Shown here piece by piece: positions 304 through 19,371 of a stretch of DNA of 39,716 nucleotides. The stretch comes from Alphaproteobacteria bacterium. GTDB lineage: Bacteria > Pseudomonadota > Alphaproteobacteria > Bin95. Every line of letters starts with the position of its first letter. Positions within the stretch are counted from its first letter, which is position 1. The notes below the pieces were generated by a model. The model was given only the letters and a program-made list of their open reading frames with translations, was not told where the DNA came from and did no database searches. The stretch spans positions 1 to 39,716 of the forward strand of contig JAJDVH010000065.1 of the NCBI GenBank assembly GCA_022826185.1, written 5' to 3'. The position numbers and the translations under genes are program-made.

Positions 304-575
304 GGCGGAATCACAGGAAGCCCGGCGGCGGGCGGCAAGCGCCTTTGCACGGCGCTGCCGCGTCGCGAGCGGCGGCTGTCATCGGGCTAGGAGGGTGTGG
401 GTTTGCGGTGGCATTGCCAAGAGCGGAGCTTGAGGCGTTTTTTGGGGAGAATTGCAGGGCTGAAAGCAGGCCGGAATTTCCAGGGGTTGGGTTGCGGGCC
501 GGCCTCAGAATAGTCGTTTAGATGTTGATTTGTCGAGAAAAGTATGATCGAGTCTTGGCGGCGGGAGAGGACCGC
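304..575. other. Intergenic region upstream of the pilus operon
   Basis: No convincing gene is visible. Both plus-strand open frames here are Arg/Ala-rich and look spurious. GC content falls clearly in the last ~100 bases (around 505-600), as expected for a promoter region that would serve the pil operon and lie between divergent genes. TTGATT (525-530) and TATGAT (543-548) resemble -35 and -10 boxes, but their 12-base spacing is too short for a sigma70 promoter, so I do not call a promoter. Confidence 0.4.
563..570 (+). promoter_or_regulatory. Ribosome binding site for the out-of-frame pilN start
   Basis: GGGAGAGG lies 5 bases before the ATG at 576-578. It is the best Shine-Dalgarno sequence upstream of the secretin. 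It supports translation starting at 576 and passing through the C tract at 608-620, rather than at the internal ATG at 734, which lacks a recognisable site. Confidence 0.6.
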
Positions 576-2227
576 ATGGATATTTTGACTAAAAACAGTA
601 GCTTACACCCCCCCCCCCCCGAGGCGGGCAGCGAGCGTCATGGCCTAAGTCGGTAGCCGTCGCGCTGCTGTTTGCGCCGCCGTTTCTGGCGGCGTGCGAT
701 TTTCAGGAAAAGTTCGAGGCGGCCGACCGCGAAATGGACGCGGTCGAGGAGATGCTCGCGGATGCGCGGGCGTCGGAGGCCCAGAGCGGCTTCGGCTCGG
801 TCCGGCTGGTGGACCGTCATCCCTATATCGGCGCGGCGCGGATCGAGGCGGACCCGAGGGAGGGGCTGCCGGAGTTCGTGCAGGGTCAGGCGGCGGTGGT
901 GCTGCCGCAACGCGGCATGGTGAGCGATGCCGCACTGGCCGGGCAGATCGAGGAGGTCACCAGCATCCCGGTTCACTTCGTGGGGCGGGCGCCGGTGTCC
1001 GAGGAGGACGAGGCGCCGGGCGCGGCGGCGCTCACGGTCTGGCGCGAGCGCCTGGGTCCGGCAGGGGTGCTGTGGTCGGGATCGCTGGACAGCCTTCTGG
1101 ACGGCTGGGCTGAAGCGGCCGGGTACGAGTGGCGCTACGACGAGGAGCGCAGGCGCATAGAGGTCGTGCGCTTCCGCTCGGTCGTGTTCCACGTGCATGC
1201 CCTGGCAGGCAGTCAGGCGTACCAGGCCGGGTCGTCGACCAGTGACAGCGCGGAGACTGAAGGAGGGGGCGCGCAGGGAGACCATTCGCTCGAGGGAGAG
1301 GCGAAGTTCGATCCGTGGGGGGAGATCGAGGGGCAGCTGCGTGTTCTGACGGGAGAGGGCACGCAACTGACGGTGTCGCAGTCGTCGGGGTCGGTCGTGG
1401 TGGCGGGGCTCCCCGGCGACGTGGCCCGGGTGCGGGCCTACCTCGCGCATCTGAACAACGAGGTTCTGCGGCCGGTCACGGTCTCGGTCCACGTCTACGC
1501 GGTTCAGATGAACCGGAGTGCAGACTTGAATCTGGGCCTTACGGCGATGATCGGACGGCTCTTGGGCGAGGCGGTCGGGGTCAATGCCGACGGGAGCGAC
1601 GGGTCGATCGCAATCGTGCGGCCGTCTGTGGGGGAGGACGACACCTTCGAGGCGACGGTGAGTGCGCTCAGCAGGAGCGGGCGCATATCGCGGCTGCTGT
1701 CCGCGGACGTGTCGTCGCTCAATCACAAGCCTGCGCAATTCTTCGACATGTACAAGCAGACGTACGTGAAGGAGGTGAAGATCGAGGAGCCGCAAACGGC
1801 GGCGGACGGCTCCCAGCAGGGGCGGCTGTTGGTGCAGACGCCGGGGACGGTGTCGTCGGGGTTCGCGTTTTCCTTCGTGCCGCAGATCACGGGGCCGGAC
1901 GAGGTGCTGCTGAGGCTGTTCGTGTCGATGCAGGATCGCGCGGAGGGCATTCAGGAGGATCCGCAGCCGGGTCAGATACAGCGGCCGCGTTACGGCACGC
2001 GCGCTGTGAATCTCGTCCAGAACCTGCGGCGCGGCGAGACTCTCGTGGTGACGGGGTTCAGGACCCGGGAGGCGTCGCGGGAGGGTTCGGGGACCTTCGA
2101 CGAAACGATCGTGCTTCCGAAAGGCGGGAGCTCGGGCGGCCTTGCGGCGGCAGAGCAGGTCCTGCTCGTAAGCGCGCAGATCGGGCCGCCGCTGGGCGTC
2201 AGCGAAGTGCACGGGGCGGCGCTGTGA
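576..2227 (+). CDS. pilN: PilN-type secretin lipoprotein (type IVb pilus); signal peptide one base out of frame in this sequence
   Basis: PilN forms the outer-membrane secretin pore through which the thin pilus is extruded. The uninterrupted frame runs from 602 to the TGA at 2225-2227. The first in-frame ATG is at 734, but just upstream in the same frame are the codons for SVAVALLFAPPFLAAC, a lipoprotein signal with an LAAC lipobox, which shows the true start is further up. The ATG at 576 has a good ribosome site but is one base out of frame because of a 13-C run (608-620); 14 Cs would join it to the signal peptide. From 734 the product is 497 residues. The second half has the secretin pattern: VAGLPGDVARVRAYL (N-domain end), a long beta-rich region, VVTGFRTREA and a closing LLVSAQIGPP. 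pilO follows after 34 bases. No other start codon that supports a full signal is present. Confidence 0.85.
608..620 (+). repeat. 13-base poly-C tract near the 5' end of pilN (candidate phase-variation tract)
   Basis: Thirteen consecutive C residues lie 11 codons into the frame opened at the ATG 576. With 13 Cs that frame ends at TAG 654-656. With 14 Cs (or 11) it would pass through a short Pro run into the lipoprotein signal peptide of PilN. Long mononucleotide runs near the start of surface-structure genes are classic slipped-strand switches, but they are also a common place for sequencing errors. Confidence 0.7.
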
Positions 2228-2261
2228 CGCCGGGCGCGGGGGCGATGCCGGAGAGGCTGCC

Positions 2262-3536
2262 ATGACCGAGGTCGTGGTGCTGGGCGGTCGCCGCTTCGTG
2301 GCGGGCCTCTTCTGGACGAAGCCGGGGGCGGAGATCGATCCCAAGGGACGCCGGCAGTGGGCGTGGTCTGTGGAGCTGGGCGAGCAGACGGGATGGATTC
2401 CGAAGGAAGCAGGGCTGCGCGGGCTGGAGGGTGCGCCCAGCCTGGCGGCTTCGCTTGCGGAACATATCGGAGGATCGGGGGACGACGATGCCGCCGGCTG
2501 GGTCGCGCTGCTGGCGGCCGAGGACGGGCGCTCTGCCCTGGTCCGGATGAAGGACGGGGCGATCCGGACGGACGGCGACCAGGTGTTCGAGAACGCGGAG
2601 ACGGCGGAGGACACGGTTGCGTCGGCGCGGGCCGAAGGCGCTCAGGTGTACGGAACGGCCGGGGCGATCACGGACGGGGGCGGTTGGCTGGAGGTCGACG
2701 TCGGGCGGCTTCCCGAGGGGGGAGACGAGGCGGGGCTGAAGCGGACCGGCAGCGGGAAGTCCCGGTTGAAGGTGGCGGGTCTGTCGGCGGCGTTTCTGCT
2801 GCTCGGCGTGGGCGCGGTGGCGATGCTGGCGCCGGACATGCTGTTCGGGCTGGTCGGCGGAGGCCAGAAGGCGGTGATGGACGTGGTGGAGGTCGTGGAG
2901 GCCGAGGTGTCGGCGCGGATCGAGAACGGCGCGCTGGTGCGTGCGTGCAGCGATGCGGAGGCGGAGTGGCCCCCTTACATGCCGGCGTGGGAGCTGACGA
3001 GCGTCGCCTGTTACGGCTGGTTCCTGGAGACGGAGTTGATCGGGCTGCGGCCCGAGCTCGAGGGACGCGCCGTGATGCTGGTGCGCTGGGAGCTGCCGGG
3101 CAAGTACGTGGCGGCGCTCCACAGGCGTATCGCGGAGGAGCATCTGGCGGCCTGGTATCTGGCATCGGTGGTGGAGAGAAGGGCCTGGGCCGTGGTGCTG
3201 CTCGATCCGGTGCTGGGGCGCGCGGAGGGCGAGGCGGCGCTGCCTTATCTGGAGTTTCGCCGGCAGGTGGACCGTCATCTCGGGATGCAGGGCGCGCATA
3301 TCGACTACAGCGACAAGTCGGGCGTGGTTGAAGTGACCGTGGGCTTCAGCCGGGGGCTCGGGCGCATTGAGCCCGTGGTCGCGGATGTTCCGGGCTTCGA
3401 GCTTGTGTCGCTGTCGCGCAGCGGGCGCGGGATGTGGGTTCTGAAGGGCCGGCAGGTGGCGAGCGTTTGGCTCAAGGAGAGCCTGTACTGGGAATTGGCC
3501 GGCAAGGGGAGCGGCGGAAAGGTCGCCGCTTTCTGA
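2262..3536 (+). CDS. pilO: PilO2-type type IVb pilus assembly protein
   Basis: The 424-residue protein matches the IncI-type PilO (PilO2) family, which forms part of the inner-membrane scaffold between the secretin and the PilQ/PilR motor. It has a cytoplasmic N-terminal half starting MTEVVVLGGRRFVAGLFW, a region with repeated short beta segments, one transmembrane helix at about residues 168-190 (VAGLSAAFLLLGVGAVAML) and a periplasmic C-terminal half. The ATG at 2262 has GGAGAGG 6 bases upstream. It sits directly after pilN as in R64. Here pilP does not follow immediately: three other genes intervene. Confidence 0.82.
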   Translation: MTEVVVLGGRRFVAGLFWTKPGAEIDPKGRRQWAWSVELGEQTGWIPKEAGLRGLEGAPSLAASLAEHIGGSGDDDAAGWVALLAAEDGRSALVRMKDGAIRTDGDQVFENAETAEDTVASARAEGAQVYGTAGAITDGGGWLEVDVGRLPEGGDEAGLKRTGSGKSRLKVAGLSAAFLLLGVGAVAMLAPDMLFGLVGGGQKAVMDVVEVVEAEVSARIENGALVRACSDAEAEWPPYMPAWELTSVACYGWFLETELIGLRPELEGRAVMLVRWELPGKYVAALHRRIAEEHLAAWYLASVVERRAWAVVLLDPVLGRAEGEAALPYLEFRRQVDRHLGMQGAHIDYSDKSGVVEVTVGFSRGLGRIEPVVADVPGFELVSLSRSGRGMWVLKGRQVASVWLKESLYWELAGKGSGGKVAAF

Positions 3537-3551
3537 CGGGGAGGTCTGACG

Positions 3552-5495
3552 ATGAGTCGACGGCGTGAGTTGCTGGCAAGCGTTGCGGCGTTGGGACTGG
3601 TTTACGGCGGGGCGGTGCCGGGCGGCGCGGCGCTGGCGAGCATTGCAGACGAGGAGCGGGTGTTTCGCCAGGACGCCCTGGCGCACGCGGAAGCGGTGGC
3701 GGTCGGTTACAGGCAGCTGGAAGAGCACATCCTGCTGGACTCGGCCGGGGTCACGTCATGGACGGGCTCGGTGCCGCCGACGTCGACGGGATGGAAGGCG
3801 TCGTGGACCGCGCGGGGCGTGCGGGCGCGCTATTGCGACGAGACGCTGCTGGTTTACCTGCACCCGGCGGAGTTGAAGGGGGTGGGCAGGGACCACCGGA
3901 GCGTTCATTCGGCGCCCCATGCGTTCGTGGGGGAGGGCAACCAGACGCGCTTCCCGCCGCTCCACTGGCTCGACGGAAACCGGGTCACGAAAAACTCTCC
4001 CGCGGGGACGGTGCCGGTGGTGGCGCTTCCGGCATGCATGACGGGCGATGCGCTGCCGTCGGGGCGGGCGGCGCTGGCGGGGACGGTGAAGGATCCGCAC
4101 CTGACGGTGAACAAGCGGCCGGGGGTGGAGCACGAGTACCGCTCGCAGCCGTGCGCAACGGGGAAGCACGGGCCGGGGATCCGGGAGTACCGCGAGATCA
4201 CCTTTACCCTGGATGGCCGGGGCGAAGAGGTGCCGGGGACCAGGGTCGTGGGATCGTGGCAGGAGCTCGTTGACGCCTGCAGGGACGATTACACGGAGTG
4301 GGTGCACTACACGAAGGAGTGCACCTGGACGGCCGGCGCGCCGCACAACCGCGAGATGGTCGGGGAGGAGGTGTGGCGCGTCCAGGAGACGGTGACGGGG
4401 GCCGGCCGAACGCGGAATCCGCCGGGCGAGTTCGTTTCGACGACGTGCTGGAGCGGTCTCGAGGGGGAGCACCACACGGCGGAGATCGACGAGCGGTCCA
4501 GCCAGCAAAGCATGACCGTGGCGTGCGGGCAGGGGTTCACGGGATCGCGGCGCTACACCCGCACCGAGACGGTACGCTCCACGCAGTTCCCGTGGGACGC
4601 CGCGCCGGTGGTGACGACACGGTATACGAGCTGGAAGCTTGCCTCGTCGTCGTGCGTGAAGATCGAGCCGCCGAAGCCGGAAAAGCCGTTCGAGCCGAAG
4701 CCGTGCGATTCCAGCGTGGAGCAGTGCGATGGGACGGTCGACGAGGATCCGGATGTCGATTCGGAGAAGGCGGAAGTTGCCCAGGCGGGCACCTACACCG
4801 TGGACGTGGACGAAACCAGGACGCGTGATTGCAGCACGTCGGACCCCTCGCTCACGGGCACGTACGTGGAGACCCGGACGGTCAGGTACACCTACGAGCT
4901 GAAGGCGGACGGCACCCGCACGGAGACAGGCAGGAACGCCGGCGTCTGGTGGACATCGAAGAACAGTTGTAGGCAGAAGGACACGGGCCCCACGGACCCG
5001 CCCGGTCCCAGCGTCGGCCCGAGCTCGCCGTCCGGCCCGAGCTGCGGTCCGCCCGGCGACGGCAGCGCCAGTCCCGGCGAGGGCGAGTGCACCGGGATGG
5101 ACGCGTCCATCGCGGCCGCGGTGGCAGCAGCGACCGGAAACGGCGGCAACGGTGGCGGCGGCTGCTACTTCACCACGGCGGTGGTCGAGCTGCGCGGCGA
5201 CGAGCCGGACGACGGGCCGACGCTGACCGCGCTCAGGGAGTTTCGCGACACCTATATGATGGAGACGCCGCTCAGGCGCGCGATGGTGTGGGCCTACCGC
5301 CGCATCGCGCCGCTGGTGGTGCGCGATCTCCCGGCCGACGACGCCTCGTGGCAGCCCATGGGCGAGCATATCGATCGTTCGGTCGAGCTGATCCGCGAAG
5401 GCGATCTCGAGGCCGCGTTCCGCGCGTACGTGACGGGGTCTACCCGGCTGATGCTGCGCTGGTGGCTGCTCCGGGCGGCAAGGGCGGTGTCGTGA
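3552..5495 (+). CDS. Exported Cys-rich repeat protein with C-terminal CFI-box-like domain
   Basis: The 647-residue protein has an N-terminal signal peptide (SRRRELLASVAALGL, cleavage likely after ALA at 27-29). Three loosely repeated modules follow at about residues 201-243, 325-368 and 427-473. Each runs from a Cys through G-x-R/Y and T-E/R-T-V steps to a Trp and a closing Cys. A Pro/Ser/Gly-rich linker (about 475-537) leads to a C-terminal region beginning GGGGCYFTTAVVELRG and LREFRDTYM, which resembles the 'CFIATAxYG...LRxFRDxYL' motif of CFI-box proteins. The N-terminal half has scattered aromatics and Cys but matches nothing I recognise. It lies between pilO and the polyprenyl synthase, whose GTG start overlaps its stop. 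A surface or pilus-tip role is a guess. Export is well supported, function is not. Confidence 0.7.
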   Translation: MSRRRELLASVAALGLVYGGAVPGGAALASIADEERVFRQDALAHAEAVAVGYRQLEEHILLDSAGVTSWTGSVPPTSTGWKASWTARGVRARYCDETLLVYLHPAELKGVGRDHRSVHSAPHAFVGEGNQTRFPPLHWLDGNRVTKNSPAGTVPVVALPACMTGDALPSGRAALAGTVKDPHLTVNKRPGVEHEYRSQPCATGKHGPGIREYREITFTLDGRGEEVPGTRVVGSWQELVDACRDDYTEWVHYTKECTWTAGAPHNREMVGEEVWRVQETVTGAGRTRNPPGEFVSTTCWSGLEGEHHTAEIDERSSQQSMTVACGQGFTGSRRYTRTETVRSTQFPWDAAPVVTTRYTSWKLASSSCVKIEPPKPEKPFEPKPCDSSVEQCDGTVDEDPDVDSEKAEVAQAGTYTVDVDETRTRDCSTSDPSLTGTYVETRTVRYTYELKADGTRTETGRNAGVWWTSKNSCRQKDTGPTDPPGPSVGPSSPSGPSCGPPGDGSASPGEGECTGMDASIAAAVAAATGNGGNGGGGCYFTTAVVELRGDEPDDGPTLTALREFRDTYMMETPLRRAMVWAYRRIAPLVVRDLPADDASWQPMGEHIDRSVELIREGDLEAAFRAYVTGSTRLMLRWWLLRAARAVS

Positions 5496-6478
5496 TCCCT
5501 CCGGTCTTCGCCGACGACGCCGCGAAGGTGGACGACGCCGTGCGCTCGATCGTGGCCGGCGGCGTTCCCGAGGACTACGCCGCGGCGTGCGAGGCGGTGC
5601 AATACCTGATCGCGGGCGACGGCAAGCGCCTGCGCCCGATGCTCGCGGTCGGCGCCGCGCGCGCCTGCGGCAGCGTGTGCGACGACGTGATCCCGGTGGC
5701 GGCCGCCGTGGACGTTCTGCACCAGGCGACGCTGCTGCACGACGACGTCATCGACAACGCAAGCGTGCGGCGGGGGCAGTCGACCGCGAACGTGGTGTGG
5801 TCGAACAAGATCAGCGTGCTGGCGGGCGACCTGCTGTTCACGCTGGCGAGCCGGACCATCAACGAGCACCTGGCCGGGGCCAACGGCCTCGCGGTGCAGG
5901 CGATGATGGAGATCGTGAGGGGCGAGCTTCGCCAGGCGCATGACGCGCGCCACGTCGAGCGCTGCTCGACCCGCTACATCGCGGCGGCGAAGGAGAAGAC
6001 CGGCGTGATGACGTCGTTCGCCTGCGTGCTCGGTTCCATGGCGAGCGAGGTGCAGCGCGTGAACGAGGGAGCCCGCGCCCGGCTCAGACTCGATGCCTTC
6101 GGCCAAGACTTCGGCATCGCCTATCAGCTCGCCGACGATGCCTGCGACTACGGCGCGCGATGGCACAGCTTCAGGAAGCGGCGCGGGCAGGACTTCCGCG
6201 AGGGCATCGTGACCATGCCGGCGGTGCTCGCCTGGCAGCGGGGAACGCTTCAGGAGCGCGCGTTCCTCGTGACCGCGCTGGAAAGCGGCGACGTGGGCGA
6301 CGGCGATTTCGAGCGCGCGGTCGCGCTCATGGAGGGCACCGGCGCGATCGCGGACACGGTGGCGGAAGCCAAGCGCTACGGCGAGCGCGCCAAGGGGCAT
6401 ATCGCCGAGTTCGGCAACGAGGCTGCGGACGGCCTGGCCTGGCTGGTCGACCGCTACATCTGCGACGTGGAGGCCTGA
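5492..6478 (+). CDS. Polyprenyl (octaprenyl-type) diphosphate synthase
   Basis: The 328-residue protein is a trans-isoprenyl diphosphate synthase, which extends allylic diphosphates with isopentenyl diphosphate. Landmarks in order: GDGKRLRPML (residues about 44-53), the first aspartate-rich motif LLHDDVID (about 81-88), EKTGVMTSFA, the second aspartate-rich motif YQLADDACDY (about 210-219) and RRGQDFREGIVTMP. The whole resembles alphaproteobacterial octaprenyl (quinone side-chain) synthases. In the last motif the usual 'EGK(x)TLP' lysine is replaced by Ile, while both DDxxD motifs are intact. I choose the GTG at 5492 because it overlaps the upstream stop (GTGA); the same frame is open further upstream but lies inside the previous gene. 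Presence in a pilus operon is unusual; it may supply a lipid carrier or be cargo. Confidence 0.85.
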   Translation: MIPPVFADDAAKVDDAVRSIVAGGVPEDYAAACEAVQYLIAGDGKRLRPMLAVGAARACGSVCDDVIPVAAAVDVLHQATLLHDDVIDNASVRRGQSTANVVWSNKISVLAGDLLFTLASRTINEHLAGANGLAVQAMMEIVRGELRQAHDARHVERCSTRYIAAAKEKTGVMTSFACVLGSMASEVQRVNEGARARLRLDAFGQDFGIAYQLADDACDYGARWHSFRKRRGQDFREGIVTMPAVLAWQRGTLQERAFLVTALESGDVGDGDFERAVALMEGTGAIADTVAEAKRYGERAKGHIAEFGNEAADGLAWLVDRYICDVEA

Positions 6479-7711: not shown

Positions 7712-8778
7712 GGCCGTGGGGTGATCGAGTGAGGCGCCCGGTGGATCCTGGAGCGTGGCTGCGCGCGGGGGTGGTTTGTTTCTCCCTGGCCATCGCGCCG
7801 GTCCCGTCTCTGGCGCAGGAGGAAGGGCTGTCCCTGTTTCCCTCTCTGGGGGAAGACAGCTGGCTCGATCAGGGGGTTGGAGGGCAGCGGCCGGGAGAGG
7901 AAGGGAATGGCGAGGCAGCGGACGGGCCGTTGGCTCCGGGAGTCGCGGGCAGCGCTGATGTGGTGCCGGTGGGTCCCGAGGAGGGAGGTTCGGAGGCTGC
8001 TGGGCAAGAGCGGTCGCAGGGTGCGGCGCCGCCGTCGACGCAAGACGCAGGGCTGAGCGGGGGCGTGAGGGCGGAGAGCGAGGACCTGGAGCCGGCGGGA
8101 TCCAGCTCGCTTCTGGGCTATCTCGAGAAGAGCGACGAGGAGCCGGGGCCGGTCGTGGCCGCGCCGCCGCCGCAGGCGGCCGACGTCGGGGCGGCCCTGT
8201 TCGGCTGCCCGCGCTCGGTGCTGGAGCGGCTGCTGAGGGCGGCGACCGAGCGTGCGGACGTGGTGACGTCGCTGCAGATCGAGCACGAGGTGCTGGCGCT
8301 CTGCGGCGAGAGGCAGCGCCTGGTGGTGGAGATCCTCAAGGCGGAGGGGCAGCTCGCGGAGCTTTGGCGGGAGAGCCGCGCGCCGCCGCCGGAGGCCGCG
8401 CCGGCGGCGGAGCGCGAGGTGCGGGTGGAGCCGGCGGACGTGGTGGCGCAGCTCACGGAGTTCATGGGCGCGGAGGTGCTCTCGTTCGCGGAGGAGACGG
8501 TGGAGGCTGAACCGGAAGCGGAGGCGGAGCCGGAGGGCGAGCCCGAGCCGGAGCCCGTGCCGCTCTACGGCTGGCTGGCGATCTTCGGAACGGCAGGGGA
8601 CCTGAAGGCGCGGGTGAGCGACGGCGCGAACGTCTGGTTCGTGCGCGAGGGCGATGAGCTGCCGGGGGGCGTGGTGGTCGACTGGATCGCGGTGAGCCCG
8701 CCCGGCGTGCACGTCGGGACCGGGCAGGCGGTCGAGATGATGCCCTATGGACGGCCGCGGGAAGGAGGGGACGGATGA
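7708..8778 (+). CDS. pilP: PilP-type pilus assembly protein
   Basis: The 356-residue protein starts at the ATG 7708, which overlaps the previous stop. It has a signal peptide ending near PSLAQ (residues 28-32 region), a long acidic, low-complexity stretch, a helical segment (VLERLLRAATERADV... LKAEGQLAELWRES) and a C-terminal domain with LYGWLAIFGTAGDLKARV, FVREGDELPGGVVVDWI and PGVHV. The 'GDxLPGGxxV' motif is typical of the C-terminal PilP domain, a periplasmic beta domain that contacts the secretin. Position directly before pilQ matches R64. The Glu/Pro-rich stretch (EAEPEAEAEPEGEPEPEP) is a likely extended periplasmic spacer. Confidence 0.8.
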   Translation: MRPWGDRVRRPVDPGAWLRAGVVCFSLAIAPVPSLAQEEGLSLFPSLGEDSWLDQGVGGQRPGEEGNGEAADGPLAPGVAGSADVVPVGPEEGGSEAAGQERSQGAAPPSTQDAGLSGGVRAESEDLEPAGSSSLLGYLEKSDEEPGPVVAAPPPQAADVGAALFGCPRSVLERLLRAATERADVVTSLQIEHEVLALCGERQRLVVEILKAEGQLAELWRESRAPPPEAAPAAEREVRVEPADVVAQLTEFMGAEVLSFAEETVEAEPEAEAEPEGEPEPEPVPLYGWLAIFGTAGDLKARVSDGANVWFVREGDELPGGVVVDWIAVSPPGVHVGTGQAVEMMPYGRPREGGDG

Positions 8779-10175
8779 GCGGGGGACTGGAGAAGTTCGC
8801 CGGCCTGGCGCGTTCGGTGACGGCGGGGCAGGGCGGAGAGGGGGAGTTCGCCAAGCAGGACCAGGCGGTCGAGATGGGCCTGAAGCGGGTGTTTGCCGAG
8901 GCGGCTGCGGTGCGCGCGAGCGACGTGATGTTCCAGGCGGAGCGGGGCGGCAAGTGCGCGGTGTACGCGATCGTGAACGACCGCAAGCTCAGGGTGGGGC
9001 GCCATTTCAGCGAGGAGGAAGGGCGCCAGCTGACCGGCAAAATCTTCCACATGAAGGAGGAGGGATCGGCGCAGACCTCCTACCAGGACCGGGAGTTCCA
9101 GGGGTTCTCGGTGCGGGCGGGGAAGCTGCCGCTGCCGCCCTCGGTCTCGGGGCTGCGCTGTCAGAGGGGTCCGCACGAGCCGGACGGCGACCACCTCGTG
9201 GCGCGCCTCTTCTACAAGGACACGGTGAAGCACGACGCGTCGCTCGAGGGGCTGGGCTTCGAGGGCGAGGAAGTGGCGGTGTTCGAGGAAATCCGCCTGG
9301 GCCTGCACGGCGGGATCTTCGTCGGCGGCAGCACGGGCGACGGCAAGACCACGACGCTGGCCACCAACCTGATGCTTCAGATGCGCGAATGGGAAGGCCA
9401 GCTCAACCTGGTGACGATCGAGGACCCGGTGGAGATCGTCATTCCGGGCGCCCTGCAGATCGCCGTCGCGACGTCGGGCGTGGGCGAGGACCGGAGCCTG
9501 AACTTCCAGGAAGCGCTGATGCACTTCTGCCGCATTCATCCGGCGTCCGGAATGGTGTCGGAGATCCGCGACGTCGATGCGGCGCGGCAGGTGCTGCAGT
9601 TCATCGACACGGGTCACCAGGTGTGGACGACGATCCACGTCCATTCCGCGAACGCCATCCTCTTCCGGCTGATCGACATGGGTGTGGGCGTGGCCGAGGT
9701 GTGCAAGCCCGGCAACATCAAGCTGCTGATGAAGCAGACGCTGCTGCCGCGGCTTTGCCCGGCGTGTGCCGGGACGGAGCCGCAGGGACGCGAGGTTCCG
9801 GACTGGATGGCGGCGCGCATCCGGGGCTGGCCGGACGTGCGGTTTCGCAACGTGGACGGGTGCGCCGCGTGCAAGAGGAAGGGTGGCGGGACGCTCGCCG
9901 ACGAAGCCTGGGGCGGCTACGGCAAGCAGACCGTCGTGGCGGAGATGATCCGGCCGGACGGGGAGTACCTGGAGTTCGTGCGCCAACGCGACCCGGTCGG
10001 CGCCTGGCGGCACTGGTGCGACAGCATGGGCGGCACGCCGATCGGCGAGAAGATGTGGGAGCTGGTGCGGCGCGGCACGATCGACCCGTTCGATGCGATG
10101 CGCAAGGGCGCGAAGGTGCAGGACACGTCGGGGGCCGTGGGCCTGCGCGTGGTGGCCGAGAGCGGAGCCGAGTGA
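8775..10175 (+). CDS. pilQ: PilQ-type pilus assembly ATPase
   Basis: The 466-residue cytoplasmic ATPase belongs to the GspE/PilB superfamily and powers pilus extension. The Walker A GGSTGDGKTTT is at about residues 184-194, VTIEDPVEI (Asp box) follows, then HPASGMVSEIRDVDA (Walker B region, about 254-268) and the His box WTTIHVHSA. A zinc-binding tetracysteine lies in the C-terminal part: CPAC (about 328-331) and CAAC (about 363-366), as in PilB/GspE enzymes. The ATG at 8775 overlaps the pilP stop. Its own stop shares a base with the pilR start (TGATG). Confidence 0.92.
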   Translation: MSGGLEKFAGLARSVTAGQGGEGEFAKQDQAVEMGLKRVFAEAAAVRASDVMFQAERGGKCAVYAIVNDRKLRVGRHFSEEEGRQLTGKIFHMKEEGSAQTSYQDREFQGFSVRAGKLPLPPSVSGLRCQRGPHEPDGDHLVARLFYKDTVKHDASLEGLGFEGEEVAVFEEIRLGLHGGIFVGGSTGDGKTTTLATNLMLQMREWEGQLNLVTIEDPVEIVIPGALQIAVATSGVGEDRSLNFQEALMHFCRIHPASGMVSEIRDVDAARQVLQFIDTGHQVWTTIHVHSANAILFRLIDMGVGVAEVCKPGNIKLLMKQTLLPRLCPACAGTEPQGREVPDWMAARIRGWPDVRFRNVDGCAACKRKGGGTLADEAWGGYGKQTVVAEMIRPDGEYLEFVRQRDPVGAWRHWCDSMGGTPIGEKMWELVRRGTIDPFDAMRKGAKVQDTSGAVGLRVVAESGAE

Positions 10176-11215
10176 TGCTGCGCGGCGTGATCGCCTCGCT
10201 GGTCTTGCCCAGCCGGGTCCGGATCGACGTGTTCCAGATGATCGCGGACCTGCTGGAAAGCGGCATGTCGCTGGAGAAGGCGCTCGATATCGCGGCGGAG
10301 ACGGCAAGCGTCCAGGGCCAGGCGTGGCGGGCGGCGGTGCTGCGGAAGTGGCGCGATGCGCTGGTCGCGGGACGGTTCTCGGATACGGCGGCGCGCTGGG
10401 TGCCGCCGGCGGAAGCCATGATCTTCGGGGCCTACGGGCGGGTCGAGGCCGGCGTGCTGTTCGCCGGCGCCGCGCGGGTGGCGGAGATGCGCTCGAAGCA
10501 GAAGGGGGCCATGTGGAAGGCGCTGGCGCTCCCGGTCATGCTGATCGTGGGGCTGATAGTGCTGCTGTGGGGCGCGGGCGGGCATTTCATTCCGGTCCTG
10601 GAAGGGGTGAGCGATCCCGGCACCTGGGGCATGGGCGCGCAGGTGTTCCGGATGACGTCGGTGTGGCTCCACGGCAACTTCCTGCTGTTCCTCGCGGTCG
10701 TGGGTGGGCTGATGTTCTGCGTCTACCTGCTGATCGTCTACTGGACGGGGCCGGGGCGGCAGCACGCCGACAAGGTGGCGCCCTTCTCGCTGTACCGAAC
10801 GCTCACGGGCTCGGCCTTCCTGTTCGTGGTGCTGGAGTTCGTCTCGGCGGGCGTCGACGTGAACGAGCGCACCTTCACCGCGATGAAGAAGGGCGCCTCG
10901 CCCTATGCGCGGCATCGGATCGACGCGATCCAGCGGCACATGGCGGGTGGCGCGGGCTTCGGGGCCAGCATGCGCCTTGCCGGCCACGGCTTTCCCGATC
11001 CGGCGCTGGTGCCGGTGGTGGCGGCGCTCGACGGCACGGCCGGGTGGGAGCGCAAGCTCGGCGGGTTCGTGGAGCGCTGGGTCGGGCGCTCGGACGAGGT
11101 GCTGCGCTCGCGGGCTGCGCTGATGAACGGGACGCTGCTGTTGATCGTGACGTTCGTGATGGCGGGCGGCATCGACGCCATGTTCGGGATTTTGCAGCAG
11201 GCGGGAAATTACTGA
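10175..11215 (+). CDS. pilR: PilR-type inner-membrane platform protein (T2SF/PilC family)
   Basis: The 346-residue protein has two repeats of the T2SF fold. The first begins FQMIADLLESGMSLEKALDIA and the second FLFVVLEFVSAGVDVNERTF. Hydrophobic helices lie at ALPVMLIVGLIVLLWGAG (about 112-130), LLFLAVVGGLMFCVYLLIVYW (about 167-190) and near the C-terminus (LLLIVTFVMAGGI). PilR anchors the PilQ ATPase in the membrane and moves pilin subunits. I choose the ATG at 10175, which gives the TGATG overlap with pilQ. Confidence 0.88.
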   Translation: MLRGVIASLVLPSRVRIDVFQMIADLLESGMSLEKALDIAAETASVQGQAWRAAVLRKWRDALVAGRFSDTAARWVPPAEAMIFGAYGRVEAGVLFAGAARVAEMRSKQKGAMWKALALPVMLIVGLIVLLWGAGGHFIPVLEGVSDPGTWGMGAQVFRMTSVWLHGNFLLFLAVVGGLMFCVYLLIVYWTGPGRQHADKVAPFSLYRTLTGSAFLFVVLEFVSAGVDVNERTFTAMKKGASPYARHRIDAIQRHMAGGAGFGASMRLAGHGFPDPALVPVVAALDGTAGWERKLGGFVERWVGRSDEVLRSRAALMNGTLLLIVTFVMAGGIDAMFGILQQAGNY

Positions 11216-11227
11216 GAGGGAGAGACG

Positions 11228-11794
11228 ATGGCGATGGTGGGTACGAGGGGTCTGACGCGCTCGCGCCGCTGGCGCGGGTTCTCGCTGTTCGGCGTCCTGC
11301 TGGGGCTTGCAGTCGCGGGCGTGGTGATCGTGGGCGCGGTGGCGCTCTACAACCAGACGCAGGAGGCGGCGGGGCGCTCGGAGATCGTGACGCTGCTGTC
11401 GCAGCTCAAGGGAGCGGTGGAGAGGACCTTCGCGGGACGCCCCAATTACGGCGCCTCGGGCACCGATCTCATTCCGACGCTCGATGCGCGCGGGGGTATT
11501 CCATCCAACGCCCGGGTGGATACCGGTAGCGCTGTTCAGGTCTGGCACCCCTTCGATGCGCAGGTGAACATCGAAGCGCAGGTCGGCGAGTACACCATCG
11601 AGTTCCTCGACCTGGACGACGAGATCTGCGCGGCGCTGGCGGACGTCTATGTGGGTCAGACGCGGGCGCGCACGGGCCTGGTGTCGATCGCGTTCGGCAC
11701 GACCGTGGAGACCGCGCCGATAACGGTTGCGGAGGTGACCGCTGGTTGCGACGACGGCGCCGGCGCCAACGACGTGACGTTCAGGTTCGGATGA
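11228..11794 (+). CDS. pilS: PilS-type major prepilin
   Basis: The 188-residue protein has the PilS layout: a basic leader (RSRRWRG), a cleavage point after Gly and a hydrophobic helix starting FSLFGVLLGLAVAGVVIV. A segment resembling the PilS 'xIxxLxxxLxxxYxGxxxYG' pattern follows (VTLLSQLKGAVERTFAGRPNYG). The first mature residue would be Phe. Position 5 of the mature protein is Gly rather than the Glu typical of type IVa pilins. Two Cys in the C-terminal part (EICAAL, TAGCDD) could form the usual disulfide. The ATG at 11228 has a GA-rich site upstream (GAGAGGGAGAG). Its stop overlaps the first pilV-like gene (ATGA). Confidence 0.85.
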   Translation: MAMVGTRGLTRSRRWRGFSLFGVLLGLAVAGVVIVGAVALYNQTQEAAGRSEIVTLLSQLKGAVERTFAGRPNYGASGTDLIPTLDARGGIPSNARVDTGSAVQVWHPFDAQVNIEAQVGEYTIEFLDLDDEICAALADVYVGQTRARTGLVSIAFGTTVETAPITVAEVTAGCDDGAGANDVTFRFG

Positions 11795-12966
11795 GCCGGG
11801 ACTTGTCTCGCCGCCTGACGCTGGGCGCGGGCGGCCTGCTCTCGGTGATGCTGCTGGTGCTGGCGGCGGCGGTGCTTCTCGGCGCGTACTACACGGAGCG
11901 CGCCGATGCGGAGAGCCGTGCGGAGGATCGGGAGGCGGGGCGGGTCTTCGCCTTCTGGTTCCACGCGGCGCATCGCGCGAGCATGGATACGGACTGCAAC
12001 GCGGTGCCGCCGGCGACGGACTGTGCGTCTTACCTGGCGCAGCTCGGCCAGGGGTTGGTGCTGAGCGTCGCGGATCTTCGCAACCTGGATGCGGCGCCTG
12101 TCGGGCTGCCGGACACGGCCGGCCGGTCGGCGCCGTTCACGGTGGGAATCATCGACGATGGTGCCGGCGTGCCGATGGCGTTCGGGGTGATCGAGCCTCG
12201 GGCGTGGGCACATTCCGCATCGTTGCGCGCGGGCGTGATCGAGGGCGACGTGGCGCAGGTTGCGGAGTACGGCGATCCGGATTCGGAGATGGCCTTTCAC
12301 AGGGCGGCGATCGCGACGGCGATGGGCCGGACGCCGGCGAACGGCGTGCTGTTCGTGACCGCCGACCGGGGGGTGCGCTACCGGGACGATTCCCTTTACC
12401 GGCGCGCTCAGCCGGGCCAGCGCAGGCTGAACCGCATGGAGACGACGCTGAACGCAGGCGGCTGCGGGGCGGCGCACGACGAGCCGTGCGACCTGACGGA
12501 GGGCGGGCCGCTGACGGCGGTGAACGTGATCGCGACGCCGGATCCGGGGGCTCCGGTGGCGAGCACTGTCGGTGGCGACGGGGACGTGAACAAGGCGACC
12601 GAAGCGGGCTCCATGATCTCGGAGACGCTGCTGGGCCAGGCCGTTGAGGGAATCACCCTGACGGTGGACGCGGCATTGACGGTGGGAAGCTCCGAGAGCG
12701 ACACGGTGGTGACGGCGGACATGGATGTGGACGAGCACGCGCAGGCCGCTGCGGTGACGGGGACGAGCGTGACGGCGCTGGACGCCGCGGTGGAAACGGC
12801 GGTGTCGGTCTCGGGAAGCTCGACGATCGGAACCCTGAGCGCGGCGACCCTGACAATGACAGGGGAGTTGGCGACGGGCGCAGGCGTGTTCCAGGGGCTC
12901 TACGGACCGTCGGCGCGTTTCCAAACGCTGACGGTGGGATCGTGCGCGGGATGTTATCCGGAGTGA
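11791..12966 (+). CDS. pilV: PilV-like minor pilin/adhesin, copy 1 (shufflon-type N-terminal region)
   Basis: The 391-residue protein starts at the ATG 11791 overlapping the pilS stop. It has a hydrophobic N-terminal helix (LTLGAGGLLSVMLLVLAAAVLLG), a globular part, then LNRMETTLNAGG at about residue 212, the signature I associate with the constant region of shufflon PilV proteins. A Thr/Val/Ala-rich tail of short repeated strands (for example VTADMDVDEHAQAAAVTG) follows, ending LTVGSCAGCYPE. Copy 2 at 15305 shares the NRMET signature and the LTVGSCxGC end. The 3' end overlaps the convergent Xre gene by 13 bases. PilV is the pilus-tip adhesin that recognises recipients; no invertible segments or rci recombinase are visible. 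Confidence 0.72.
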   Translation: MSRDLSRRLTLGAGGLLSVMLLVLAAAVLLGAYYTERADAESRAEDREAGRVFAFWFHAAHRASMDTDCNAVPPATDCASYLAQLGQGLVLSVADLRNLDAAPVGLPDTAGRSAPFTVGIIDDGAGVPMAFGVIEPRAWAHSASLRAGVIEGDVAQVAEYGDPDSEMAFHRAAIATAMGRTPANGVLFVTADRGVRYRDDSLYRRAQPGQRRLNRMETTLNAGGCGAAHDEPCDLTEGGPLTAVNVIATPDPGAPVASTVGGDGDVNKATEAGSMISETLLGQAVEGITLTVDAALTVGSSESDTVVTADMDVDEHAQAAAVTGTSVTALDAAVETAVSVSGSSTIGTLSAATLTMTGELATGAGVFQGLYGPSARFQTLTVGSCAGCYPE

Positions 12967-13373
12967 GGTTGGTGCGGGTTGAGCGACGGGGCCTGGACGA
13001 TGAGGTCGTCGACGGTGCATTGCAGCGCGCCCGCCAGTCGGCGCAAGGCATCGACGGTGCCGGCGCGGCGGCCGTTCTCGATATGGCCGATGTGGGCCTT
13101 GCCGACTCCGCTGTATGCGGCCAGGGCTTGAAGGGTGAGGCCGCGGGCCTGCCGCCAGGCGCGGACCGGATGGGTGCCGGCACGCTTTGCGCGGATGACC
13201 TCGATCGGCACGGTGCCGGCGAGGCCGCGCGCGCGGCCGGCGGCCACGGCCGCGCGGTCCTCGGCGTCTTCGAGGGCTGCGGCGCGGGCGGGGGCAGCGT
13301 CGGCAAGCATGGCTTCGTAGACATCGCGGTCGAGCAGCAGGCTGACGGTGTCGGTCTTGGCCGTTGCGCTCAT
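12954..13373 (-). CDS. Xre-family HTH antitoxin-like protein (orphan)
   Basis: The 139-residue protein has an N-terminal helical region (TVSLLLDRDVYEAMLADA) and a C-terminal Cro/cI-type helix-turn-helix: RQARGLTLQALAAYSGVGKAHIGHIENG with VDALRRLAGALQCTVDDL. This architecture is typical of antitoxins paired with RelE/ParE toxins, but no toxin lies next to it; the upstream gene is a HicB-like protein 33 bases away. It may act as the DNA-binding partner of that short HicB or be an orphan repressor. Its end overlaps the end of the first pilV-like gene. Confidence 0.75.
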   Translation of the reverse strand: MSATAKTDTVSLLLDRDVYEAMLADAAPARAAALEDAEDRAAVAAGRARGLAGTVPIEVIRAKRAGTHPVRAWRQARGLTLQALAAYSGVGKAHIGHIENGRRAGTVDALRRLAGALQCTVDDLIVQAPSLNPHQPHSG

Positions 13374-13406
13374 TTGTACACTCCTCCCCGAGGGCCGTTG
13401 AATCGG

Positions 13407-13682
13407 TCAATTCGGCCCGGTTTTCAAGAGAGGGCGAAGGATGGAAACGGAGACGAGCGCACATCCATGCGGGGTATCCACGTCCTCGATGGCGGTTGGG
13501 AGGACGACCTCTTCCCCGTGTTTTTCCGCTTCGATCACGTAGTCGTTCAGGGCTTTCGTGGCACCCACAAGTGCGGCGTCGAGTGTCTTTCCCATTGCGA
13601 CGATGCCCGGCAGGTCCGGGAACGAAACGCCGTAGGTTCCGCCCCCGCCGTCAATCAGAGCGGTATATTGAATGATGCTCAT
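13407..13682 (-). CDS. HicB-family antitoxin, short form without HTH
   Basis: The 91-residue product contains YTALIDGGGGTYGVSFPDLP, GIVAMGKTLDAALVGATKAL and NDYVIEAEKHG. This is the partial RNase H-like fold of HicB antitoxins ('FPDLPG...T.G.TLDEA...A'). No helix-turn-helix or ribbon-helix-helix follows within the protein, and no HicA toxin lies upstream; the next gene upstream encodes the antidote of a different TA pair, ending 9 bases before this start. The Xre gene just downstream could provide DNA binding in trans. The start is the ATG at 13680-13682. Confidence 0.8.
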   Translation of the reverse strand: MSIIQYTALIDGGGGTYGVSFPDLPGIVAMGKTLDAALVGATKALNDYVIEAEKHGEEVVLPTAIEDVDTPHGCALVSVSILRPLLKTGPN

Positions 13683-13691
13683 GTCCTGTTG

Positions 13692-13967
13692 TCATTGTGT
13701 GACGGTAAGGCGGACGTTGAGGGTGTCGAGCACCTTGAACAGCGTGTCGATGCGCGGATTGCCGTCGCTGGAAAGCGAGCGGTAAAGTGCCTGTCTCCCC
13801 AGACCGGTGGCATTGGAAATCGATGTCATGCCTTTGGCGCGGGCCACGTCGCCGAGGGCTTCGACGAAGAATGTCGGGTCGTTGAATTTCAACGCTTCAT
13901 TGAGATACAGCACCAATTCCTCATCCGTTTCCAGAAAATCGACAACGTCGAATTTCTTGAGTTCCAT
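13692..13967 (-). CDS. Addiction-module antidote protein (HI1420/HigA-like)
   Basis: The 91-residue protein begins MELKKFDVVDFLETDEEL, continues YLNEALKFNDPTFFVEALGDVARAKGM and ends with a helix-turn-helix (SISNATGLGRQALYRSLSSDGN... DTLFKVLDTLNVRLTV). This matches the 'putative addiction module antidote' family in the HI1420 lineage, whose gene lies downstream of its toxin. Here it starts 12 bases after the end of the RelE-like toxin at 13980-14273, the expected arrangement, so the pair is likely functional. Confidence 0.88.
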   Translation of the reverse strand: MELKKFDVVDFLETDEELVLYLNEALKFNDPTFFVEALGDVARAKGMTSISNATGLGRQALYRSLSSDGNPRIDTLFKVLDTLNVRLTVTQ

Positions 13968-13979
13968 TGTGGGGTCTCC

Positions 13980-14273
13980 TCAGGTTTCGCGTGCCATGCG
14001 TTGGGCGCGCCGAATGTCCGGTTGCTGGGTCGTCTTATCGCCACCACAGAGCAAGATGACCACCGTGTTTCTTCGGATCGTGTAATAGACCCGATAGCCT
14101 GGGCCCACATTGATCCGGAGCTCGCTGACACGCGAACCGACGCTCCGGCGATCACCGAAGTTGCCGTGTTCGATTCGCCTGATTCGAGCAGCGATGGCAA
14201 CTCGCCCCCGCCGATCACGCAACTGCCTGAACCACTCCCGGAAGACTGGCGTATAGACGATTTCCACGCCCAT
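13980..14273 (-). CDS. RelE/HigB-like addiction-module toxin (HI1419 type)
   Basis: From the ATG at 14271-14273 the product is 97 residues: IVYTPVFREWFRQLRDRRGR, ARIRRIEHGNFGDRRSVG, VSELRINVGPGYRVYY, ILLCGGDKTTQQPDIRRA. These are the landmarks of the HI1419-type killer proteins in the RelE/ParE fold, which in known members cleave mRNA at the ribosome. The frame is open about 56 codons further upstream, but that part encodes a HicB-like remnant, so I place the start at the MGVEIVY Met, preceded by GGGG. The antidote gene follows 12 bases later. Confidence 0.88.
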   Translation of the reverse strand: MGVEIVYTPVFREWFRQLRDRRGRVAIAARIRRIEHGNFGDRRSVGSRVSELRINVGPGYRVYYTIRRNTVVILLCGGDKTTQQPDIRRAQRMARET

Positions 14274-14330
14274 AGTGTCCCCAATAAAGGACATTCGGTC
14301 AAGCTGACTAAGCCACAGATTGCTCATAGG

Positions 14331-14441
14331 CAGTATGGCGTGCACGCGGAGTGCAAGCGCCACGCGCGCGGACGCTTCGGCCTCTTCGCGAGTTCTGCTG
14401 CCGGCGGTGACGCTGCCTGGGAATTCCGGGAACTCGACGTT
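14331..14441 (-). pseudogene. HicB-like antitoxin remnant
   Basis: Directly upstream of the toxin, in the same open frame, the translation reads VEFPEFPGSVTAGSRTREEA and then EASARVALALRVHAIL. This fits the central HicB pattern ('FPDFPGxVTAGDTREEA...A.EAL.LH'). It starts just after a TGA (14442-14444) and lacks both the first strand and the C-terminal DNA-binding part, so it looks like a decayed hicB. The rest of the 258-base gap between the toxin and the complete hicB shows nothing else. Confidence 0.55.
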
Positions 14442-14531
14442 TCAGTCCGAGGCTTCGTTCTGGCTGATCAAGCCGGGGTATCGGCGGAGCCCGCGCGCCA
14501 TTTCGGTTTGTTGGAGGTGGCGCCGGCCTCC

Positions 14532-14960
14532 TCACGCAGCGCGGGATTCCAGCACGAGATCGTGGCCGAGGGCGTGGAGAGCCTGGTGGATACGGTTCGC
14601 GGAGCTTCGGTGGCGGGGATCGAGCATTCGACGGACAGACTTCTCTTCGATTCCAAGGCGTGCGGCGAGCGCCGCCGGGGTGACGCCGGTCCGGTGCAGC
14701 GCCAGCGCCAGCGCTGCCTTCGCCGCCGTCTCGGGGGGCACGGCGACCGGATATTCGCCTGCGCAGCGCTGGCTGGGAACAGGGATGCAATCAGCCCGAT
14801 TAATGCGACCGGCAATGGCTTCTTCGAGCGCGTCGGCGGCTTCCGCAAGCGCCTCCGCCTCGTTGCTTCCGGAGGTCAGACACTCGGGCAGATCGCGGAA
14901 AGAGACGACCAGCTCGCCGGTGCAGTCGGGGCGCAGACGTGCAGGGTAGACGAATCGCAT
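14532..14960 (-). CDS. hicB: HicB antitoxin, complete
   Basis: The 142-residue protein has the HicB RNase H-like domain (YPARLRPDCTGELVVSFRDL, PECLTSGSNEAEALAEAADAL, EEAIAGRI; residues 5-54) and a C-terminal DNA-binding part (AALALALHRTGVTPAALAARLG, about 82-103, then EEKSVRRMLDPRH). HicB neutralises HicA and represses its own operon in known systems. It starts 12 bases after the hicA stop, the usual toxin-first order. Confidence 0.88.
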   Translation of the reverse strand: MRFVYPARLRPDCTGELVVSFRDLPECLTSGSNEAEALAEAADALEEAIAGRINRADCIPVPSQRCAGEYPVAVPPETAAKAALALALHRTGVTPAALAARLGIEEKSVRRMLDPRHRSSANRIHQALHALGHDLVLESRAA

Positions 14961-14972
14961 GACTGTCTCCTG

Positions 14973-15194
14973 TCAGCCTTGTCGGATATCGGTCCGTGCA
15001 AGGCCCAGCTGGCGGATCATGGCAGACAACAGACCGGGGCCAATCTCCGTGCGCCGACCCTTCACGACGGTGAAGCGATCGCCGAAGTAGATCGTGATGT
15101 GGCTGCCCTTGCCGCGCTCGGTGTCGATACGAACCGAGACCCCGCGTTCTCTGCCGATCCTCATGACCCGGTCGATGAATTCCTTGCCCTTCAC
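14973..15194 (-). CDS. hicA: HicA toxin
   Basis: From a GTG at 15192-15194 the product is 73 residues: VKGKEFIDRVMRIGRERGVS, then GKGSHITIYFGDR and GPGLLSAMIRQLGL. This is the double-stranded-RNA-binding-like fold of HicA mRNA interferases. The conserved catalytic His follows Gly-Ser (residue 32). The frame is open to an ATG at 15245, which would add 17 residues unlike the family, so I prefer the GTG, though neither start has a clear ribosome site. It reads away from the second pilV-like gene. Confidence 0.8.
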   Translation of the reverse strand: MKGKEFIDRVMRIGRERGVSVRIDTERGKGSHITIYFGDRFTVVKGRRTEIGPGLLSAMIRQLGLARTDIRQG

Positions 15195-15292
15195 GGGGCA
15201 ACGTATGGGGCAGTCGCGCGTCGGTATCAAGCGAAACCGGAGCATTGCGGCGGCGCCGGCGACGGGCAGGAGGTCGCGTGTGGTGGCGCCGC

Positions 15293-15300
15293 GGGAGGAG
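15293..15300 (+). promoter_or_regulatory. Ribosome binding site of the second pilV-like gene
   Basis: GGGAGGAG ends 4 bases before the ATG at 15305. It decides the start over the in-frame ATG at 15245, which would put an unlikely Arg-rich extension before the prepilin leader. Confidence 0.7.
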
Positions 15301-15304
15301 CCCC

Positions 15305-16426
15305 ATGAGATCGCGCCGGCGGGGCAGTCACGGCCTCAGCCTCTTCGGCTCGCTTCTGGCGATGGCGCTGCTGGGATCGCTGATCCTCGGCGTGGTGGTC
15401 TGGCTGGAGGAGCGCGCGCTCGAGGATCGCGCGCGGCTGGCGGGAAGCAAGCTGGAGACCCTCGCGCATGCGGTCAGCTCCTACGTGCACAGCAACTTCC
15501 GGGATTTGCAGCTTAGGGTGCCTGCGGGATCGCCACAGACGACCATCACGGCGGCGGAGCTTTCAGCGGTGCTGCCGGAAGGCTTTTCGCCGGTGGATGC
15601 ACTGGGGCGGGGATATCGGGTGATGGCGATGCGGGCGGGAACGACGGGGGTCGACGTTCTGGTCGCGCAGACCTTGCCGGCGGGAGACGCCTTCGTGCCG
15701 TCGGCGGCGCTTCTGGGCGAGCGCTACGGCGGGGTGCGCATGGGCGTGGTGGCGCCGGAGGCGTCGACGCGCCTGCGGGGGCCGGCGATCGACGTGGACG
15801 TGAGTGCGTTCCAGACCGCGTTCTCGGGAGTGCCGGCGGTGGGTGCTCTCGCCGCGTTCGGCAGGTTCGACCACCAGAACGTGTTCGGCGACATGCTCTA
15901 CCGGATCGAAATTCCCGGGTTCCCGGACGCCAACCGGATGGAGACGGCTCTCCATCTGGGCGGCAACGACATCGCGGGCGCCGGACTGGTGGAGGCGCAG
16001 AGCTTCGATGTGGAGGAAGACATCGAGGTGAACGGGGCGCTCGAGGTCGAGGGCGAGTTGACGGTGGGCGAGGCGGTCACGGTAACGGGAGAGGTGACCG
16101 TCGGCGGCGCGATGACGGCGGGAAGCGGGGAATTCGACGGCCTGGTGAAGGCGGACACCGTGGAAGCCGAGACGAGCATGGAGACGGTCACGGTGACGGC
16201 GAGCGGGACCGTGACGGCGGAAACGGTCTCGGCCACGGGCGCGATGACTGCCAACAGCGCGACGATCGGCGACCTGCAGAGCGCGACCATGGATGCGCAG
16301 ACGGTGACGGCGACGAATGTGACGGCGGAGAACGTGTCGCTGAACACGATGCGTGCCACGGGGTCGATCGCGGCGGCGACGGCCGGCATCTCGAGGCTGA
16401 CGGTGGGGAGCTGCTCGGGATGTTGA
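15305..16426 (+). CDS. pilV: PilV-like minor pilin/adhesin, copy 2
   Basis: The 373-residue protein has a prepilin leader (MRSRRRGSHG), a probable cleavage after Gly10 and a hydrophobic helix starting LSLFGSLLAMALLGSLILGV. A globular part leads to FGDMLYRIEIPGFPD and NRMETALHLGGNDIAGAG (about residues 210-227), the shufflon PilV constant-region signature. The tail is a run of short Thr/Val-rich repeats (EVEGELTVGEAVTVTG, GTVTAETVSATGAMTA and similar), as in fibrous adhesins, ending ISRLTVGSCSGC. It resembles copy 1 at both signature regions. It lies downstream of the inverted TA cluster, so transcription must either read through that cluster or start just upstream. Confidence 0.8.
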   Translation: MRSRRRGSHGLSLFGSLLAMALLGSLILGVVVWLEERALEDRARLAGSKLETLAHAVSSYVHSNFRDLQLRVPAGSPQTTITAAELSAVLPEGFSPVDALGRGYRVMAMRAGTTGVDVLVAQTLPAGDAFVPSAALLGERYGGVRMGVVAPEASTRLRGPAIDVDVSAFQTAFSGVPAVGALAAFGRFDHQNVFGDMLYRIEIPGFPDANRMETALHLGGNDIAGAGLVEAQSFDVEEDIEVNGALEVEGELTVGEAVTVTGEVTVGGAMTAGSGEFDGLVKADTVEAETSMETVTVTASGTVTAETVSATGAMTANSATIGDLQSATMDAQTVTATNVTAENVSLNTMRATGSIAAATAGISRLTVGSCSGC

Positions 16427-18463: not shown

Positions 18464-19371
18464 TGGGGCGCGTGACCGGGCCGCGTTGCCTGTTGCTGGC
18501 GCTGGCGGTTGCGGCGCCGGCCCTGGGCTGGTGGCCGGGCCAGGCCGTGGGCGCGGAGGCGCCGCCCACACTGGAGGAGCTTTACCGGGTGAGGCCCGGT
18601 AGCGACGCGGGCACGGTGTCGTTCGCCGAGGAGAAGCGGGGCGAAGCCATGCGCCTCGCGGCCGTGGCCTTCGGCGCGCAGGCCGGCCTTGCCAGGCGGA
18701 GCTGGGAGATCGCCGGGATGCTGCACGGGTTCGAGCGGCAGCTCACGCGCATCTACCGCTTCGACCAGCTCGTTCTCAGGCGCAGCGGCTTCCAGGTGCT
18801 GCCCCCGGTGCTGGGTGAGACCCGCCAGGCCTTCCGGCTTGCGCGGACGCGCACGCGGGCGGCGAGTGCCGAGAGGGTGCTTCGGATCGTCGAGGCGGAG
18901 CGCATCGTGAGTGCGGTGCCGCACTGGCGCGACTTCGTGGTGCGGCGCTGGCGGCTTGCCGAGCCGCCGGCGGCGGTGCTGTTCCCGCGCGACGAAGACG
19001 AGGAGGCGCGGTGGCGGCGCTGGCTGGGCGAGGGCTGGCTCATGGGCCGGCGGCAGGCCGAGGACGTGTTCGCGTCCGACCTGGACCGGCTCAACCGCAC
19101 CTTCGAGGGGATCGTTGCATGGCACAGGCTGCGCGAGGCCGCGATGGTCTCGGCGCCGGTGGTGCTGGCGGAGCGGACCGGAGTCAGCGGCGGCGGCAGG
19201 CTCATGCGCATCGGCGAGCTGGTGGTTCATATCGCCGATTGGGCGGCGCTGAACCCGCGCTCCGAGGAGTGGCGGGTGATGCATCAGGCCGCGCCGCTCG
19301 ACGTGGAGGTGGAAGTCGGCGGCGTGGCAGAGGCGCATCGGCTGCGGCCGGAAGAGGGGGCCGCGCCGTGA
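18463..19371 (+). CDS. dotC: DotC/TraI outer-membrane core component
   Basis: The 302-residue protein has an N-terminal signal peptide (CLLLALAVAAPALGW) without a clear lipobox, unlike the lipoprotein DotC of Legionella. Family landmarks include RGEAMRLAAVAFGAQAGLA, a helical middle and the C-terminal block RTGVSGGGRLMRIGELVVHI then ALNPRSEEWRVM, close to the DotC 'GVTGGGxEMRIxDRxxRIT...LNPxxxxWR' pattern. Its stop overlaps the GTG start of dotB (GTGA). Order and spacing match the R64 traH-I-J cluster. Confidence 0.88.
   Translation: MGRVTGPRCLLLALAVAAPALGWWPGQAVGAEAPPTLEELYRVRPGSDAGTVSFAEEKRGEAMRLAAVAFGAQAGLARRSWEIAGMLHGFERQLTRIYRFDQLVLRRSGFQVLPPVLGETRQAFRLARTRTRAASAERVLRIVEAERIVSAVPHWRDFVVRRWRLAEPPAAVLFPRDEDEEARWRRWLGEGWLMGRRQAEDVFASDLDRLNRTFEGIVAWHRLREAAMVSAPVVLAERTGVSGGGRLMRIGELVVHIADWAALNPRSEEWRVMHQAAPLDVEVEVGGVAEAHRLRPEEGAAP

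Follow-up and report, generated by a model that had tools for sequence, protein, structure and literature searches.

A run of 13 cytosines separates the probable start codon of a putative pilus secretin gene from its lipoprotein signal, and its length sets the frame in which the remainder of the gene is read. We give about an even chance to the reading that this run is a replication-slippage phase switch of the secretin whose assembled state is OFF. The length is known from one assembled consensus of an uncultured alphaproteobacterium, whose draft genome (G000) comprises 4.48 Mb in 279 contigs. The analyzed window is an entire contig of this genome (C120; 39,716 bp), and approximately 600 bp lie between the run and a contig end. 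The features at the beginning of the gene, in window coordinates, are as follows.

562–569, plus strand: Shine-Dalgarno-like sequence GGGAGAGG, read directly, with 6 nt spacing to the ATG at 576
576–578, plus strand: probable secretin start codon (ATG GAT ...), aligned to the TTG/ATG-GAT-TCG starts of five same-genus homologues
576–656, plus strand: short frame resulting from 13 Cs, 26 aa followed by TAG, by frame reading
602–2227, plus strand: PilN-like secretin frame, without a standard start before 734 (TIGR02520, E 9e-37, below the curated cut-off; PF00263, E 1.5e-5)
608–620, plus strand: frame-setting C13 homopolymer, read directly
647–697, plus strand: lipoprotein signal KSVAVALLFAPPFLAAC, with the Cys codon at 695–697 (Cys invariant in 10 aligned homologues)
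734–736, plus strand: internal ATG downstream of the signal, by frame reading

The initial annotation had described an ATG at 576 with a Shine-Dalgarno-like sequence that reads into 13 Cs and terminates at a TAG (654–656), and both its coordinates and its arithmetic hold. The translation of this frame is MDILTKNSSLHPPPPEAGSERHGLSR. The secretin frame opens with LTPPPPRGGQRASWPKSVAVALLFAPPFLAAC, is intact over its 541 codons, and displays coding-like GC3 immediately downstream of the tract. The signal ending in FLAAC (683–697) lies in this frame, which is not joined to the ATG at 576. Upstream of position 734 it contains no ATG, GTG, or TTG, the only near-cognate codon being CTG (at 665, 668, and 686), so that the ATG at 734, located beyond the signal, is indeed the sole standard start left, as had been claimed. 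Frame reading also bears out the claim that one additional C would join the ATG at 576 to the signal and the secretin, and extends it, since removal of two Cs fuses the same frames. The gene combines two of the characteristics of a contingency gene, namely a G/C homopolymer of at least 9 nt within the gene and a tract length that decides whether the start is joined to the conserved frame. A plus-strand promoter consensus was looked for upstream of the gene, and no match was found.

Among the other seven genomes of the genus, six carry homologues of the secretin at about 40–45% identity, and a scan of named genome records yielded 22 loci, overlapping in part with the genus set; all of these are from metagenome-assembled genomes (MAGs), and all are alphaproteobacterial except one labelled Acidobacteria. 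The signal Cys (C32 of the frame) is invariant in all 10 aligned same-genus sequences, so we take the signal-carrying frame upstream of the ATG at 734 to be real. The TTG/ATG-GAT-TCG starts of five relatives (L004, L005, L007, L017, and L019) align with ATG-GAT-ATT at 576, which makes this ATG the likely true start. A C tract near the start is absent from every relative examined. Given the Cys conservation, the start homology, and the tract-free relatives, the start and the signal are most probably parts of one gene, with C13 between them. The three propositions on which the initial annotation was built, i.e., that the ATG at 576 is a real start, that the lipoprotein signal lies in the other frame, and that tract length sets the frame, are therefore backed by comparative evidence as well as by frame reading. 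In the same five relatives a conserved, though varying, box (CACCACA ... GGAAGCTGTTGGATTCG ... TTGTCAAC) lies ahead of the secretin start or reaches into it; the more distant flanking sequences are different, as though the secretin were situated near the end of an inserted element.

Comparison with related elements had also been proposed as a check, with an intact start lacking the tract in a relative named as evidence against switching. Such starts do occur, in literal agreement with that description; they do not thereby refute switching in the present lineage, since contingency tracts can be lineage-specific. In Neisseria, for instance, phase-variable pilC alleles are confined to the pathogenic species, with commensals also carrying pilC (PMC5953494). 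Nearer copies of the element were found neither by a single-protein scan of genome contigs nor by either of two viral-contig scans; an alignment scan of genome contigs gave nothing above 46% identity over the full protein, and a tblastn search of plasmids gave distant relatives only (~30% identity).

The tract is an outlier with respect to the composition of its surroundings. The window contains 7225 C runs of length 1, 1633 of length 2, 218 of length 3, 30 of length 4, and 7 of length 5, the counts dropping approximately four- to eight-fold per extra base, and the only longer runs are one of 7 and the one of 13. No C/G run of 13 appeared in Markov simulations of order 1, 2, 3, or 5 (60 windows each). 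The whole genome includes eight C/G runs of at least 9 nt (13, 12, 11, 11, 9, 9, 9, and 9), of which C13 is the longest. By the run-length spectrum, the simulations, and the genome-wide rarity, C13 is an expanded tract and not a compositional tail. Arrival of the tract together with a mobile upstream segment was considered and rejected, as a DNA search with positions 1–730 returned short partial matches only. At 3–113 on the minus strand, an open reading frame resembling the N-terminus of an IS605-type TnpB is truncated by the contig end; its 116-aa frame has no Pfam match.

With regard to the gene product, the PilN family model TIGR02520 is the best match (126.8 bits against a curated cut-off of 287.65), and the secretin domain PF00263 scores just under its threshold (25.1 bits against 27.5). 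Since the family score is below the curated cut-off, we describe the product as a divergent PilN-like secretin and do not place it within the PilN family. Its frame includes the N-terminal lipoprotein signal of a PilN-type secretin, and its neighborhood contains the following genes.

2262–3536, plus strand: next gene, without a family match in profile searches
8775–10175, plus strand: pilus assembly ATPase (PilQ-like; T2SSE), PF00437, E 1.5e-39
10172–11215, plus strand: inner-membrane pilus protein (PilR/ComGB-like), NF041012, E 1e-6, a weak match below cut-off
11228–11794, plus strand: type IVB pilin (bundlin/PilS-like), PF05307, E 2e-8, and PF08805, E 2e-5, both above cut-off
19011–20537, plus strand: DotB/TraJ-like ATPase, TIGR02524, E 3e-74, below the curated equivalog cut-off
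30728–33130, plus strand: DotA/TraY family protein, TIGR04346, 206.8 bits against a cut-off of 100
33143–35092, plus strand: coupling protein (TraG/VirD4 type), PF02534, E 7e-43

An assembly ATPase (PF00437) and a type IVB pilin (PF05307/PF08805), as expected of a pil neighborhood, are thus accompanied by all three of the DotA/TraY, DotB/TraJ, and coupling proteins that characterize I-type (Dot/Icm-like) conjugation. On these predicted functions, the locus is a set of divergent type IVB pilus genes adjoining an I-type transfer-like system. The pilus and transfer genes examined are intact, and the reading frames listed across the remainder of the window are long and dense. Within the pilus/transfer gene run there are also a polyprenyl synthetase gene (5528–6478; PF00348, E 2e-50) and, at 12954–15308, an XRE-type regulator with a Gp49/HigB-like toxin candidate, located between two genes for minor-pilin-like proteins that both terminate in or near LTVGSC(A/S)GC.

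Long C tracts occur elsewhere in the genus in several contexts. In genome G002 (contig C426, L136), an out-of-frame C11 at 4088 splits a type IIG restriction-methyltransferase-like gene into frames 1234–4266 and 4073–4948, whereas in G003 the orthologue (L149) runs through the tract site as a single open frame. In the genome studied here (G000:C39:17550, L068), a C11 lies ~30 bp upstream of the ATG of a frame beginning MKPQISRRDALRAAG... (signal-like); the sister site in G005 reads GCCGCCCG, and its flanks are identical over >100 bp to the left (with one mismatch farther out) and ~70 bp to the right. A further locus is in G005 (C147:4500–15189, L090), where four lasso-precursor-like genes carry leader tracts of 23, 14, 11, and 14 Cs (at 1903, 5991, 7218, and 8478), a few codons upstream of W-x-x-P-x-[ILV]-R. 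After this motif comes a core that begins with Gly and has Glu as its eighth or ninth residue, an apparent architecture as in lasso peptides. Relative to the longer ATG, one of the four tracts is in frame and three are out, two of the three having a shorter in-frame ATG. Neighboring genes encode a candidate asparagine-synthase-type cyclase, a sulfotransferase, and two HPr-kinase-like proteins, and phase variation of these putative lasso peptides is possible.

Not every tract is a switch, since the run at G000:C140 (L077:1502) is in frame within a 730-codon frame and is conserved at 11 nt (C11/G11) in a sister species (G003:C602, L042:1188); as assembled, it is not a switch. For the tract at C186, no orthologue covers the tract. 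In addition, a beta-barrel porin gene of G005 (BBP2_2, E 5e-87) has a C14 (C114, L083:1498) ~50 bp ahead of its likely ATG. Taken from assembled consensus sequences throughout, poly-C tract dynamics in the genus is plausible, and the presence of several frame-setting tracts makes switching at the secretin more plausible. A genus-wide poly-C contingency system that acts on the transfer pilus secretin, the type IIG restriction-modification-like gene, and the lasso precursors is a tentative proposal; if it exists, cells of one population would differ in DNA exchange, DNA defence, and peptide production.

Under the slippage model, the gene would begin at the ATG at 576 and encode an outer-membrane lipoprotein secretin for the type IVB pilus found alongside the I-type (DotA/TraY) conjugation-like machine, and the C13 between start and signal would be prone to slippage during replication. 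Addition of one C or deletion of two would join start, signal, and secretin (ON), whereas other lengths would lead to termination at the TAG at 654 or at another early stop (OFF), the changes being reversible. In the assembled OFF state only the ATG at 734, without a signal, would remain. Tract length would vary among cells and switch the secretin, and the pilus, perhaps together with contact during liquid mating, would follow. By analogy with R64, in which loss of the pilus affects liquid mating more than surface mating, pilus loss here would be expected to do the same. MutS and MutL domains were found in the genome; slippage rates are accordingly expected to be low to modest, and loss of mismatch repair is unsupported as a cause of the tract.

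The chief competing explanation is that the run actually measures 14 (or 11) nt, the assembled 13 being a sequencing or consensus error, and that the secretin is expressed in the ordinary way. Long C/G runs are difficult to size accurately, the draft is fragmented, the identified relatives are all MAGs, most of them with contig names of short-read assemblers, and the genus includes tract-like runs at contig ends that are artefactual in appearance. On the other hand, the other frames listed for the window are long and closely packed, and the C11 of contig C140 recurs at an identical length in an independent MAG; moreover, a true run of 14 would still be a slippage-prone tract. We regard a miscount as rather doubtful, short of improbable. 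Fixed loss, in which expansion of the tract recently inactivated the gene on its way to becoming a pseudogene, would account for a tract that is found in a single lineage, in the OFF frame, and in no relative, but the secretin frame and the examined pilus and transfer genes remain intact, which makes this outcome unlikely.

Two further alternatives leave the DNA unchanged or the tract without a role. A −1 ribosomal slippage on CCC CCC (or its transcriptional equivalent) could yield some full-length secretin, because a −1 shift within the tract reaches the secretin frame at CGA (620), and the PPPP codons would favor pausing; relatives, however, produce the protein without any such tract, and we consider this route quite improbable. 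Initiation at a non-standard CTG (665 or 668) would give a shortened signal and reduce the tract to irrelevant upstream sequence. In three relatives (L002, L003, and L006) the secretin frame likewise contains no ATG, GTG, or TTG before the signal, and translation may begin at CTG. Nevertheless, the CTG at 665 lies within the hydrophobic stretch, so that no positively charged n-region is left, no Shine-Dalgarno sequence precedes it, and the starts of relatives align with the ATG at 576; a CTG start is thus very hard to credit. If the tract does vary, as replication slippage would predict, the contact pilus of a conjugation-type element would be under a bet-hedging switch carried by the element itself, and the range of homopolymer phase variation, which is most familiar in host-associated pathogens, would extend to uncultured alphaproteobacteria.

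Among open-access titles and abstracts, no conjugative pilus secretin switched by a homopolymer was found. The locus is similar to that of R64/IncI1 PilN, the secretin of the thin pilus, in that a lipoprotein secretin is encoded in a pil locus next to an I-type transfer apparatus; unlike members of that family, the present secretin scores below the curated cut-off of TIGR02520. In R64-type pil loci it is the PilV adhesin that varies, through a shufflon, and we know of no homopolymer switch in R64-type pilN. In the fim/bvgS systems of Bordetella pertussis, as proposed here, a change in poly-C length alters a surface appendage or its regulator; in contrast to C13, however, the fim tracts are located in promoters, and the run in bvgS, which is shorter, does not lie between a start codon and a signal peptide. 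In N. meningitidis, homopolymers of at least 8 nt are predominantly variable within single colonies (PMC5084427), and Neisseria pilC is phase-variable via G(9–20) tracts in the reading frame whose length determines the ON or OFF state (PMC5953494). PilC1/PilC2 differ in being type IVa pilus retraction/adhesion proteins with documented tract-length variation, whereas the target here is a type IVB pilus secretin adjoining transfer genes, known at one assembled length. In both cases a pilus biogenesis gene contains a G/C homopolymer within its coding frame, and by this analogy Neisseria pilC is the closest mechanistic precedent.
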